In this document: piece by piece, positions 38,678 to 42,877 of the stretch
Numbering within the stretch: the stretch's first letter is position 1
Layout: every line of letters starts with the position of its first letter
Assembly: GCA_003142475.1 (NCBI GenBank)
Contig: PLMK01000072.1
Location: 1-57,372, forward strand
DNA from: Ignavibacteriota bacterium
GTDB lineage: Bacteria; Bacteroidota; Ignavibacteria; UBA10030
Length of the DNA stretch: 57,372 nt
Reading direction: 5' to 3'
Position numbers and translations under genes: made by a program
Notes under the pieces: generated by a model
The model's input: only the letters and a program-made list of their open reading frames with translations
Databases searched by the model: none
What the model was told of the DNA's origin: nothing

Positions 38678-39328
38678 TTATACACTCTTAATCACCTTGA
38701 TCACGCGCCACATAAAACTGACATCGCGTTTACGCACAAGCATTGGTTCGTACTCTGGATTCAGCGGAATGAGGTGAACGAACTGTTCGTCGATCTTGAT
38801 CCGCTTGACGGTATCTTCCTCGTCCACTCGCACTACGCAGATGTCGCCGCTTTTCACTTCGTGCGTTGGACTGACAACAATAATATCCCCATTTTCAATG
38901 CGGGGAGACATACTGTTGCCTTTTACTTCAAGCGCAAATGCATTCGGATCCCGCACATCGTCAACGGTGATATGCCGATCGGCATGTTCCGGATGAAAAA
39001 TATGGCTCGGCACTCCGCCGGGTACGGAAGCAAACAGCGGCAGAGAAACAAGTGCCACCTTTTTGTAGCGGCTTGTCGGCAGCGGTATAATCTTCGACTT
39101 GTGCACATCGGCGGGAATCATTTCTCCCTCTCCGGTGAGCAGCCAGCGGGCCAGCACGCCGGTTGCTTTCGCAATGCGCATCAGGTAATTGCTGTCAGGA
39201 ACCTGCTCGCCCTTCTCCCATCGCTGGACAGTACGCGTGGCAATATCAATCTTCGCGGCAAGCGTTCCCTGGTCTAATTGTTTAAAGGAGCGCGCTTCTC
39301 GAATGCGTTGTGCAATTGTAGTTTTCAT
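38678..39328 (-). CDS. LexA/CI-like transcriptional repressor (XRE HTH + S24 peptidase)
   Basis: 216 residues. Residues ~5-60 are an XRE helix-turn-helix (QGTLAAKIDIATRTVQRWEKG). Residues ~95-216 are a LexA-like S24 autoprotease domain with Ser139 in GNSMSPRIENGD and Lys175 in DTVKRIKID, so the catalytic dyad is intact. The usual Ala-Gly self-cleavage bond is replaced by SVPGGVP (Gly104-Gly105). Such repressors cleave themselves on RecA filaments after DNA damage. The start is the ATG at 39328, preceded by AGGA at 7 nt; the longer frame to 39502 crosses the promoter and is rejected. It is divergent from the RecA-like/polymerase operon and has its own operator, so it should control both itself and that operon. 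Confidence 0.88.
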   Translation of the reverse strand: MKTTIAQRIREARSFKQLDQGTLAAKIDIATRTVQRWEKGEQVPDSNYLMRIAKATGVLARWLLTGEGEMIPADVHKSKIIPLPTSRYKKVALVSLPLFASVPGGVPSHIFHPEHADRHITVDDVRDPNAFALEVKGNSMSPRIENGDIIVVSPTHEVKSGDICVVRVDEEDTVKRIKIDEQFVHLIPLNPEYEPMLVRKRDVSFMWRVIKVIKSV

Positions 39329-39341
39329 ACATATCCTCAAA

Positions 39342-39357
39342 ACGACATAAATGTCAC
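39342..39357. promoter_or_regulatory. Operator site for the S24 repressor (repressor promoter side)
   Basis: Sequence ACGACATAAATGTCAC, an imperfect inverted repeat ACGACA-N4-TGTC(A)(C) that matches the second site at 39439-39454 at 13 of 16 positions. It lies over the expected transcription start of the repressor, just downstream of its -10 box and 13 bp before its ATG. This placement fits autorepression. Confidence 0.7.
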
Positions 39358-39361
39358 TCCT

Positions 39362-39391
39362 AAGATACCGCATTTTGCACTGTATTGTCAA
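39362..39391 (-). promoter_or_regulatory. Sigma-70-type promoter of the S24 repressor gene
   Basis: On the minus strand, a -35 box TTGACA (39391-39386) is separated by 18 bp from a -10 box TATCTT (39367-39362). The operator at 39342-39357 covers the likely transcription start. The leader contains the AGGA ribosome-binding site before the ATG at 39328. Confidence 0.65.
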
Positions 39392-39430
39392 GCCTTTTTC
39401 ACTTGGCCTTCTATTCTTTAATTGATCCTC

Positions 39431-39459
39431 TTGACAAGACGACAAAAATGTCGTAATCT
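39431..39459 (+). promoter_or_regulatory. Sigma-70-type promoter of the RecA-like/polymerase operon
   Basis: A perfect -35 TTGACA (39431-39436) and -10 TAATCT (39454-39459) are separated by exactly 17 bp. The repressor operator fills the spacer. The predicted start of transcription is only about 5 nt before the ATG at 39471, so the first gene would have an almost leaderless message or start further in. Confidence 0.7.
39439..39454. promoter_or_regulatory. Operator site for the S24 repressor (polymerase operon side)
   Basis: Sequence ACGACAAAAATGTCGT: perfect 6-bp inverted arms ACGACA/TGTCGT around AAAA. It sits between the -35 and -10 boxes of the divergent operon promoter, where bound repressor would exclude RNA polymerase. 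It is the more symmetric of the two copies. Confidence 0.75.
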
Positions 39460-39470
39460 TTTTCAGAATT

Positions 39471-40292
39471 ATGAACAAAACCTCATCCATATTCCCCGGC
39501 ATGCATCACCACAGATACCCAAGTCCGCCACTTTCAGTAGAATTAAGCGGCGATGCTGTCCCGGTTCGCTCGGAAGGAATGATTCGTTCATTCGCAGAAA
39601 AACCCGGCAAGGTATTTTTGCTGTACGGCGAACGCCCTATCTTTCAATTGTCCATGCAGATGGCGGCGCACGCAATGGCTGACGGAAATTCTCTTGCCGT
39701 TGTGGACGGATGCAACCGGTTCGATGTCCACACGCTTTCACGGTTTGCACGCACTCGGAAAATCGACCCAAACAAATTTCTTAACCATATCTTCATCTCA
39801 CGCGGCTTCACCTGTTACCAGATGGAACAGGCTATTACGCACAAATTACCTTCGTTTCTTTCAACCATCCACTCACATACGGCATTGATCTTTGGACTGC
39901 TTGATACATTCTACGACGAACAAGCGTCCTTGCGGGAAGTGCAACAGATTCTTCAGAGACTTCTGGTTTCATTTCAGAAAATGAAAACGACGGGCGCTTC
40001 GCTTTTACTGGTGTGCCTAGAAAGAACTGTCGCTCCGCCAGAACGAAATCAATTATTCGCCACGCTGAAAAAAGGCGTGGATCGCGTGTACAAACTCGAC
40101 ACCAACGAACGCGGTACACTGCAACTATTTTTGGAATCACAACAGACAGCTGCTGCTGTTCAGTTTATAGCGAGAGGAGAAACAAATTATGGGACGGACG
40201 GTACCAACCTTCACCAACCTGATCGACGCGGAATTGTCAAGCTGGTCAAAGTTTCGCCGCGGACTGCGCAAAGAAGATCAGGAAGCGTTTGA
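39471..40292 (+). CDS. RecA/RadA-like protein lacking Walker A (ImuA-like role suggested)
   Basis: 273 residues. From about residue 45 it follows the RecA/RadA core: KVFLLYGERPIFQLSMQMAAHAM at the Walker A position, LAVVDGCNRFDVHTL, a NHIFISRGFTCYQMEQAI strand-helix pair, and TALIFGLLDTFYD at the Walker B position. The GxxGK[S/T] loop is missing (GERPIFQLS, residues 53-61), so nucleotide binding is doubtful. It may act as an accessory to the polymerase, as the RecA-like ImuA does in the DnaE2 mutasome. The last ~35 codons overlap the next gene and look unconserved. The N-terminal start is uncertain: there is no clear ribosome-binding site and the promoter is very close. Confidence 0.7.
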   Translation: MNKTSSIFPGMHHHRYPSPPLSVELSGDAVPVRSEGMIRSFAEKPGKVFLLYGERPIFQLSMQMAAHAMADGNSLAVVDGCNRFDVHTLSRFARTRKIDPNKFLNHIFISRGFTCYQMEQAITHKLPSFLSTIHSHTALIFGLLDTFYDEQASLREVQQILQRLLVSFQKMKTTGASLLLVCLERTVAPPERNQLFATLKKGVDRVYKLDTNERGTLQLFLESQQTAAAVQFIARGETNYGTDGTNLHQPDRRGIVKLVKVSPRTAQRRSGSV

Positions 40293-40443
40293 TGAAATAT
40301 TCCGGGCGGCAAAGCTGCATCTGGCGGAAAATTTCTACGCCATGCGCGCTGTTCCGTTTGAAAGCATGATGATGTCGATCCTGATAGAGCAGCAGAAGGC
40401 GATACGAAAACTGGAAAAAGAGGTTGAGAAATTAAGATGTTGA
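40189..40443 (+). CDS. Small basic/coiled-coil protein of the polymerase cassette
   Basis: 84 residues, overlapping the end of the RecA-like gene by 104 bp in another frame. Translation is supported by GAGAGGAG 8 nt before the ATG. The sequence has an N-terminal TNLIDAELSSWSKFRRGLRKEDQ, a conserved-looking VPFESMMMSILIEQQ and a C-terminal charged helix (KAIRKLEKEVEKLR) that could form a coiled coil. I recognise no named family. Its position between a RecA-like protein and the polymerase suggests a bridging or regulatory subunit. Confidence 0.7.
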   Translation: MGRTVPTFTNLIDAELSSWSKFRRGLRKEDQEAFDEIFRAAKLHLAENFYAMRAVPFESMMMSILIEQQKAIRKLEKEVEKLRC

Positions 40444-40543
40444 GATAGGAGAACTTGTGAGCCTATAGGTCTGGAAGTCTATGAGCCGTTGAGGAGTGAG
40501 TCTATAAGTCTTATGAGTAAATTTGAGTATACAGTAGTTTAGT

Positions 40544-42877
40544 ATGGAAAAAACAAATCGTCAATCGACAATCGACAATCGGCAATCATCCATCTCTGCC
40601 TGGCTGTTCGACGTCTATCCATCAGAATGCGGGGTGACGCTTTGGCTGATTGGCCTGAACGGTGCGCGGATGCACTTCTTCCGGCAATTCACACCATATT
40701 TTTTCCTTCATCTAAACACATCCGACATAAAGCGCGCAATTGCACTTGGTGCACGATGTCCGATTCCCGTCTCCTTCAAACAGACAACACATACAGAGAT
40801 TTACTCTGGTGATTCTATCGATGTGCTACAAGTATTTGTACAAGATCCGATGCGGTTCAGAGAAGTTGTATGGTATTATGAAAAATTCTTTCCTCATTTT
40901 GTTTTTTTTAATTCCGATGTTTCCGTTGAGCAGCAGTTTCTCTACGAAACACAGCTGTTTCCGCTGGCACTTGGCGATTACGAAATGAGCGGCGACGGCG
41001 AACTTCTTTCCTGGCATTTGAACGACAGCCGCGAAGCGGTTGACTACGAGCTGCCGCCATTTTCCATCATGCAGATTCGCAATAGCAATGATTTTGTTCC
41101 GCCGAAGTACCAAAAATTTCTGCAATTAGAAATCAGCTACGACAACCGCACGTATGCGCTGGAACAGGATTCTCCAAAAGAATTGCTGGAAGCGCTCAAC
41201 TGGCATCTCTACCGCTGTGATCCGGACATCGTCGTAAGCGACTACGGCGACGCCGTTCTTCTGCCAAAACTTTTTTCTCTTTCCAGGAAATCCAATATTC
41301 CACTGCTCCTCAACAGAGACACAACCGCGAAGTTCGGCACAACGAAGGAATCCAGTTTCTTTCAGTACGGCAAGATTGTTCACAAGGATGGCGCGTTCAC
41401 GCTCGCAGGCCGCTGGCACGTGGATGCGCACAATTCCTTTACTGTTGCAGAAGCGGATCTTGACGGTCTGTTCGAAATGACACGTCTCACGCAAATGTGC
41501 GGACAGCGGCAAGGACGCGCAAGCATCGGCACGTCTATGTCGTCGATGCAGCTTTCGTGGGCATATCGCAACAATGTTCTTATTCCATCAAAGAAGCGCG
41601 AGCCGGAGGGATTCAAATCCGCCGCAACACTTCTGCTCGCCGATCGTGGCGGACTCATCTTCAATCCGCCGCTTGGCTATCATGAAGACGTTGCTGAGCT
41701 GGATTTTGCGTCGATGTATCCGAGCATCATGGTCAACAATAATGTCTCGCCGGAAACAATCAACTGCCGCTGCTGCAAGAATAATGCAGTACCGGAGCTT
41801 GGCTACACAATTTGTGAAAAACGAAAAGGAGTTGTGCCGGAAACACTGCGTGCCGTCGTTGCCAAGCGCGCGCACTACAAACAGATGAAAAAAGAATTCA
41901 AGGGAAAGAATGAAACACTTTTTAAACGGTACGATTGCCGGCAAAGTGCGCTCAAGTGGATGCTCGTGAGTTGCTTTGGTTATCTTGGCTACAAAAATGC
42001 ACGCTTCGGCCGCATTGAAGCACATGAATCGGTGAACGCTTTCTCGCGTGACATCATTCTCACGGCAAAAGAAATTGCCGAGAACCGCGGCTACCGGCTT
42101 CTCCACGGAATTATAGATTGCGTTTGGCTAAAAAAACCTGGTGCAACACAGAATGATTACGAAGAACTCGCCCGCGAAATTTCCGCACGCGTCGGCATCA
42201 CTATTTCGCTGGAAGGCATTTACAACTGGATTCTCTTCCCCGCTTCTAAAACAGATCCGATGATCACCACAGCGAATCATTATGTCGGTTGGTACAAGCA
42301 CGGCGATTTGAAAATGCGCGGCATCGAGGCCCGGCGCCGCGACACGCCGAAGTTCATCAAGAACATGCAAAAAGCGATGCTGGATAAGATGCCAACCGCC
42401 AAGAATGTTGAAGAAATATCGACATTGGTCCCAGAGGTGTTGGAAGTTGCTCGTGGTTTTATTTCACTCCTTCAGAGCGGACGCGCAAACCCGATGGAAT
42501 TAGTTCTTAAACGTCACATCACGCATGAGGCTGATGAATACGTCAACAACAGTATTAGTGCGGTTGTTTCGAAAATGGTGGAAGAAATGGAGGTGCATCT
42601 CTCAGCGGGCGAGTCGATAGAGTTTATCATTATAGATCAATCAGGAAAGAAAAAGCCGGAAAAAGCCAAGCCCATCGCGCTTTATGCATTTGAAGACGGC
42701 TATGACATCGAGCAATATACCGAACTTGCACTACGGGCAGTGGAAACGCTCCTGTTACCGTTTGGATATGATGTGGAGCGTTTAAAAGCGAACTTTGACA
42801 TCAACCAGCCAAAGCGAAAACGGCTGCCCGGACATCTAAAAAATCAGGAACTACCGTTGTTTAGAATTGATATTTGA
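40544..42877 (+). CDS. B-family DNA polymerase, exonuclease-degraded, PolB2/Dpo2-like
   Basis: 777 residues. Motif A is intact (LDFASMYPSI, Asp387). Motif B is recognisable (RQSALKWMLVSCFGYLG, ~466-482). Motif C reads HGIIDCVW (521-528) where active enzymes have YGDTDS, so one of two Asp residues is lost and Asp525 is kept. In the exonuclease half, the DxE, N-x2-3-F/Y-D and Y-x3-D motifs are not conserved (LQLEISYD, SDYGDAVLL, FTVAEADLDG), so proofreading is probably absent. A Cys group (408, 410, 411, 424) could bind zinc. This pattern recalls the archaeal Dpo2/PolB2 group, once thought inactive and later linked to translesion synthesis. The start may lie downstream of the heptamer repeat. 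Confidence 0.85.
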   Translation: MEKTNRQSTIDNRQSSISAWLFDVYPSECGVTLWLIGLNGARMHFFRQFTPYFFLHLNTSDIKRAIALGARCPIPVSFKQTTHTEIYSGDSIDVLQVFVQDPMRFREVVWYYEKFFPHFVFFNSDVSVEQQFLYETQLFPLALGDYEMSGDGELLSWHLNDSREAVDYELPPFSIMQIRNSNDFVPPKYQKFLQLEISYDNRTYALEQDSPKELLEALNWHLYRCDPDIVVSDYGDAVLLPKLFSLSRKSNIPLLLNRDTTAKFGTTKESSFFQYGKIVHKDGAFTLAGRWHVDAHNSFTVAEADLDGLFEMTRLTQMCGQRQGRASIGTSMSSMQLSWAYRNNVLIPSKKREPEGFKSAATLLLADRGGLIFNPPLGYHEDVAELDFASMYPSIMVNNNVSPETINCRCCKNNAVPELGYTICEKRKGVVPETLRAVVAKRAHYKQMKKEFKGKNETLFKRYDCRQSALKWMLVSCFGYLGYKNARFGRIEAHESVNAFSRDIILTAKEIAENRGYRLLHGIIDCVWLKKPGATQNDYEELAREISARVGITISLEGIYNWILFPASKTDPMITTANHYVGWYKHGDLKMRGIEARRRDTPKFIKNMQKAMLDKMPTAKNVEEISTLVPEVLEVARGFISLLQSGRANPMELVLKRHITHEADEYVNNSISAVVSKMVEEMEVHLSAGESIEFIIIDQSGKKKPEKAKPIALYAFEDGYDIEQYTELALRAVETLLLPFGYDVERLKANFDINQPKRKRLPGHLKNQELPLFRIDI
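40562..40589. repeat. Heptanucleotide tandem repeat at the 5' end of the polymerase frame
   Basis: Four consecutive heptamers CAATCGA, CAATCGA, CAATCGG and CAATCAT, with a weaker unit AAATCGT just before. Translated, they give the low-complexity residues NRQSTIDNRQSS near the polymerase N-terminus. The motif resembles the intergenic heptamers before mreC, so this may be untranslated and the real start may be further in. Confidence 0.6.

Follow-up and report, generated by a model that had tools for sequence, protein, structure and literature searches.

A PolB2 translesion mutasome in Ignavibacteria with a probable dedicated LexA-like switch

We analyzed a 57,372-nt stretch of DNA (the window) from Ignavibacteriota bacterium (Bacteroidota; Ignavibacteria; UBA10030), assembly GCA_003142475.1, contig PLMK01000072.1, and found a PolB2 translesion mutasome that is probably under a dedicated LexA-like switch (probability about 0.8). 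A minus-strand XRE-S24 repressor gene (38678–39328) diverges from a plus-strand three-gene operon (39471–42877). All four genes, encoding the repressor, a RadA-like protein, a small protein and a B-family polymerase, lie where a sequence-only reading of this DNA had placed them, and its claim that both promoters carry the same operator also holds (O1 and O2). The features are as follows.

38678–39328, minus strand: XRE-S24 (phage-CI/LexA-like) repressor, 216 aa, with an N-terminal HTH and an S24 self-cleavage domain (Pfam/NCBIfam)
39342–39357, no strand: putative operator O1, ACGACATAAATGTCAC, just downstream of the repressor −10
39362–39391, minus strand: repressor promoter, sigma-70-like, TTGACA-18-TATCTT (consensus match only)
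39431–39459, plus strand: mutasome operon promoter read from the sequence, TTGACA at 39431–39436, 17-nt spacer, TAATCT at 39454–39459
39439–39454, no strand: putative operator O2, ACGACAAAAATGTCGT, filling the −35/−10 spacer of the operon promoter
39471–40292, plus strand: iRadA, a RadA/Rad51 fold without Walker A (weak RadA match, structure model, motif check)
40189–40443, plus strand: PPB2 (Partner of PolB2), 84 aa, with an N-terminal MGRT arm (starts MGRTVPTF)
40544–42877, plus strand: PolB2 (Dpo2-type B-family polymerase), 777 aa (DNA_pol_B, E = 3e-37; PRK05761, 2e-118)
42110–42118, plus strand: PolB2 motif C, I523-I524-D525 replacing DTD (I523 and D525 invariant in 22/22)
42845–42862, plus strand: candidate beta-clamp-binding motif, QELPLF, close to the C-terminal end of PolB2 (shared with close relatives; others have QIPLF)

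Proteins of the mutasome and its repressor

The operon order, iRadA-PPB2-PolB2, is the sole order reported in bacteria. Pfam returned no matches for iRadA and its RadA match was weak (E = 0.005); its structure model (mean pLDDT 80) fits the ATPase domains of RadA, Rad51 and Dmc1 (Foldseek E = 3e-10, TM ≤ 0.70 by target length). The motif GxxxxGK[ST] was not found at the Walker A position of iRadA, which reads LLYGERPIFQLS. By the fold match and the missing motif, iRadA has a RadA/Rad51 fold without ATPase motifs and is an ATPase-dead RadA partner, in agreement with the earlier description of a RecA/RadA-like protein lacking Walker A. In PPB2, residues M1, G2, R3 and T4 of the published arm motif are invariant in all 14 aligned sequences. 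The iRadA and PPB2 genes overlap by 104 nt (40189–40292) in different frames, so that the PPB2 start region codes for two proteins, as it does in several relatives.

PolB2 has lost the first Asp of the DxD motif and kept the second; the published counterpart in S. islandicus PolB2 is 401-IID-403. No exonuclease domain was matched by Pfam, and at the ExoII Asp position PolB2 has a Leu when aligned to P. abyssi PolB, where we take the native residue to be Asp, the aligned chain being a mutant at that position. The proofreading exonuclease thus appears to be inactivated, and the DNA_pol_B and PRK05761 matches, together with the missing exonuclease match, confirm the proposed exonuclease-degraded polymerase of the PolB2/Dpo2 type. 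The candidate clamp motif resembles the canonical beta-clamp motif, QLxLF. We used the PolB2 structure model for its overall fold only (pLDDT 72, with the palm partly below 50). The PolB2 match is split in two near query residue 414 in some genomes of family f2 (G037, G047 and G051), with the reading frame uninterrupted, which points to a probable short, lineage-specific insertion near a Cys-rich stretch.

The divergent XRE-S24 repressor is not a canonical LexA. Pfam identified Peptidase_S24 (E = 6e-26) and HTH_19 (5e-8), and the winged-helix LexA DNA-binding domain (PF01726) is absent, with HTH_19/HTH_3 in its place. The protein resembles phage CI (about 31% identity), and its phage ancestry is probably old. 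The open reading frame extends to 39502 and the start conserved in orthologs is the ATG at 39328; a start at 39502 would overlap both operators. When aligned to E. coli LexA (A84-G85, S119 and K156), the repressor has the Ser (GNSM), the Lys (DTVK) and a cleavage-site equivalent, VPG/G. The Ser, the Lys and the P1′ Gly are invariant across all aligned orthologs. The repressor therefore carries the Ser/Lys dyad and X-Gly scissile bond of LexA-like self-cleaving S24 repressors and shares its operator with the operon, which supports the proposal of a local repressor of the self-cleaving type.

At P1, most repressors of the window's family (f1) have a Gly, and the close relatives L072 and L073 and other families have an Ala; a Gly at this position instead of an Ala could slow cleavage. 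The Gly-Gly at the expected scissile bond of most f1 orthologs would fit a repressor that senses a cue other than RecA filaments, as published for the RecA-independent LexA-like regulator IrvR, and that makes the cassette stress-inducible but not SOS-inducible. We consider this unlikely, as the Ser/Lys dyad is invariant, Ala-Gly is found in L072, L073 and other families, and DNA-damage-type genes dominate the regulon.

Operators in the genome and across the order

The pattern YGACAWWWWTGTCR has exactly two matches in the 3.58-Mb genome, both inside the 143-bp divergent intergenic region, compared to zero for a control pattern. Its chance expectation is ~0.85 genome-wide, assuming uniform base composition, and finding two within one 143-bp intergenic region is therefore far beyond chance. 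The position of O1 predicts autoregulation of the repressor. When two mismatches were allowed, the genome contained 136 operator matches and 286 control matches, showing no enrichment; consequently, we used the strict motif alone and mapped the regulon by pattern searches. Summed over 61 genomes, the strict motif CGACAWWWWTGTCG has 87 matches, compared to 7 for the control pattern.

We found the operator at 33 of 34 cassettes in repressor-bearing families and at none of 5 LexA-type cassettes, considering the 39 cassettes with readable neighborhoods (Fisher P = 1e-5, uncorrected for phylogeny). Near-matches (NGACAWWWWTGTCG) and sites before an adjacent leading DUF72 gene were scored as operator present. 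The operator of one cassette (L123) is located about 2 kb upstream, and no site is seen at another cassette (L106), because its contig ends upstream. A TTGACA-(N)4-operator-GTAT layout is kept at nearly all listed cassettes in four families, even when the repressor is encoded on another contig. The operator is also present upstream of the repressor gene in most orthologs. The cassette of G011 is split, with one operator in front of DUF5131-repressor-iRadA-PPB2 and further ones in front of PolB2. Some promoters (at L105, L114, L115, L136 and L125) carry two operators about 32 bp apart, or three helical turns, a spacing that suggests possible cooperative binding. In genomes of family f5 that lack the repressor, the operator pattern had 11 matches, mostly inside coding sequence, and these were rejected as background; matches within genes or beside unrelated genes are probably background as well.

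Of the order's 53 good genomes, 43 encode PolB2, which provides the conserved co-occurrence on which the sequence-only reading depended; of the outcomes that this reading had named as refuting it, none that could be checked came about. Four families of the order have XRE-S24 orthologs, at 51–95% identity, and none was found at E ≤ 1e-40 in the other orders of the class sample. The closest named PolB2 relatives, labelled ‘Ignavibacteriae bacterium’, have 86% PolB2 identity. Presence of the repressor gene correlates weakly with presence of PolB2 (P = 0.02), because LexA takes the repressor's place in a sister family and the repressor persists in four genomes that lack PolB2.

This distribution also bears on the possibility of a mobile module, or one derived from a prophage, that brings its own immunity-type repressor. 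The repressor's likeness to phage CI, a PolB2-iRadA-PPB2-SRAP operon on a Leptospira phage and the short contig that carries the genome's second PolB2 cassette would each be consistent with such a module. However, PolB2 is found in most genomes of the order, the gene order PolB2-ACT7-HisIE is common to the window and another genus, the repressor is confined to one order and no integrase or other mobile signature was seen near the window copy. We consider a mobile origin highly improbable and have abandoned the sequence-only reading's suggestion of a mobile module; the locus looks vertically inherited. The operon of the Leptospira phage (L260, KF114878.1, 4225–7982) is apparently complete, with an iRadA-like gene (hhalign E = 4e-9), PPB2, PolB2 and SRAP, and its genes are annotated as hypothetical except for the polymerase.

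Other targets and a second cassette

In relatives, the operator also heads genes encoding DUF72, PA0069-type radical SAM, IGHMBP2-like helicase and DUF5131/TcmP proteins, and these other targets appear to be mostly repair-type genes. In G014, which has no PolB2, the operator is found at a gene for a Y-family polymerase (L216, G014:C6, at 2026), which suggests that this repressor can be put in charge of a different translesion polymerase. The recA loci that we scanned showed no upstream operator; therefore, the targets do not form a full SOS regulon.

These targets invite a broader explanation, in which XRE-S24 governs the SOS response of the lineage globally, like the non-canonical LexA of Bacteroidetes, with the PolB2 operon as just one target among many. 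Orthologs are widespread in the four families, often unlinked to polB2 and retained in genomes without it, and the extra operators of relatives at DUF72, radical SAM, TcmP/DUF5131 and Y-family polymerase genes point in the same direction. In opposition, both strict operators of the genome are at the window locus, though so strict a pattern could miss degenerate sites; most relatives contain only 1–5 strict operators, and the scanned recA loci have none. We regard a global master as possible, though clearly less probable than a dedicated switch.

The genome contains only two S24 proteins, the XRE-S24 repressor of the window and a canonical LexA on contig C44, which is also the genome's only LexA_DNA_bind match. 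The latter stands at the head of a second cassette (L099, G000:C44:1-13569), whose genes run SRAP-DUF3795-LexA-iRadA-PPB2-PolB2. Its PolB2 is 51% identical to the window's PolB2. The window operator was not found at this LexA-headed cassette, and no shared palindrome for its LexA was recognized between its promoter regions.

Proposed mechanism and relation to known systems

We propose that, as long as the DNA is undamaged, a dimer of the XRE-S24 repressor would occupy the two YGACA-N4-TGTCR copies. Bound at O2, in the −35/−10 spacer of the iRadA-PPB2-PolB2 promoter, it would keep RNA polymerase off; bound at the other copy, it would cover the start of its own gene. Once the DNA is damaged, RecA filaments would prompt the Ser/Lys dyad to cut the repressor at its [A/G]-G site, and transcription of the operon would follow. 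Its products, iRadA, a trimer of PPB2 and PolB2, would form a heteropentamer like that of the published mutasome and dock on the beta clamp via QELPLF, and the assembled mutasome would extend primers past lesions without proofreading. RecA-stimulated self-cleavage and derepression are likely by analogy to LexA and HdiR, given the conserved Ser/Lys dyad and [A/G]-G site. We infer the repressor's DNA binding, the operon's induction and the mutagenic activity, and the bypass or extension of lesions without proofreading would follow from archaeal PolB2 genetics and biochemistry.

The identity of the cassette as a bacterial mutasome built on PolB2 stands, but its supposed novelty does not. The bacterial PolB2 mutasome (iRadA, PPB2 and PolB2) has already been described, together with its frequent lexA neighbor (Timinskas et al. 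2025, PMC11791011; Makarova et al. 2014, PMC4104785). The 2014 paper had already seen lexA inside some of these operons in bacteria. The window's cassette shares with it the three families, the bacterial gene order, the MGRT arm, IID in place of DxD, the decayed exonuclease, the PolB2 clamp motif and a LexA-type gene nearby; it differs in that the repressor is a phage-type XRE-S24 protein and not a canonical winged-helix LexA. The authors of the PolB2 mutasome paper may have counted this repressor among the ‘lexA’ neighbors. The operator and promoter geometry were not found in the texts of PMC11791011 and PMC4104785, supplements aside, and we found no literature on SOS or PolB2 in Ignavibacteria. 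The mutasome is therefore known, and what we could not find described is its private switch, a phage-type LexA-like repressor whose operator lies inside the cassette promoter across most of the order.

In its regulation, the cassette comes closest to the systems of HdiR and of the non-canonical LexA of Bacteroidetes. The latter binds GGA-N5-TCC or CTAA-N5-TTAG (Sanchez-Osuna et al. 2021, PMC8565304), a paper in which Ignavibacteria are unmentioned. Both it and the repressor studied here combine a CI-like HTH with S24 as a putative SOS repressor within the Bacteroidota/FCB assemblage, but they are set apart by operator and regulon, as the operator here is YGACA-N4-TGTCR and the regulon lacks recA. 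HdiR of Lactococcus and Streptococcus is likewise an XRE-S24 repressor over itself and an error-prone polymerase cassette, forming a minimal SOS-like circuit; in contrast, the polymerase here is the B-family PolB2 and not UmuC, the lineage is unrelated and cleavage is presumed. The ImuA-ImuB-DnaE2 and Pol V mutasomes also place a damage-type polymerase and a RecA-fold partner under an S24-family repressor, though with another polymerase family and another partner architecture.

Taken across the order, we somewhat favor a history in which four families recruited a phage-type repressor separately from LexA, and perhaps also from the cases in Bacteroidetes and streptococci, yielding a minimal SOS circuit without recA that is built around a B-family mutasome; in a sister family a canonical LexA controls this mutasome, and the window's genome has both arrangements. 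This would likely add to the cases in which a DNA-damage switch has passed to a phage repressor. With an exact and conserved repressor site assigned to the PolB2 mutasome of bacteria, the frequent proximity of lexA becomes a regulatory prediction that can be tested. One genome with two PolB2 mutasomes under two unrelated repressors offers a clean contrast for asking why mutagenic polymerases keep private switches.
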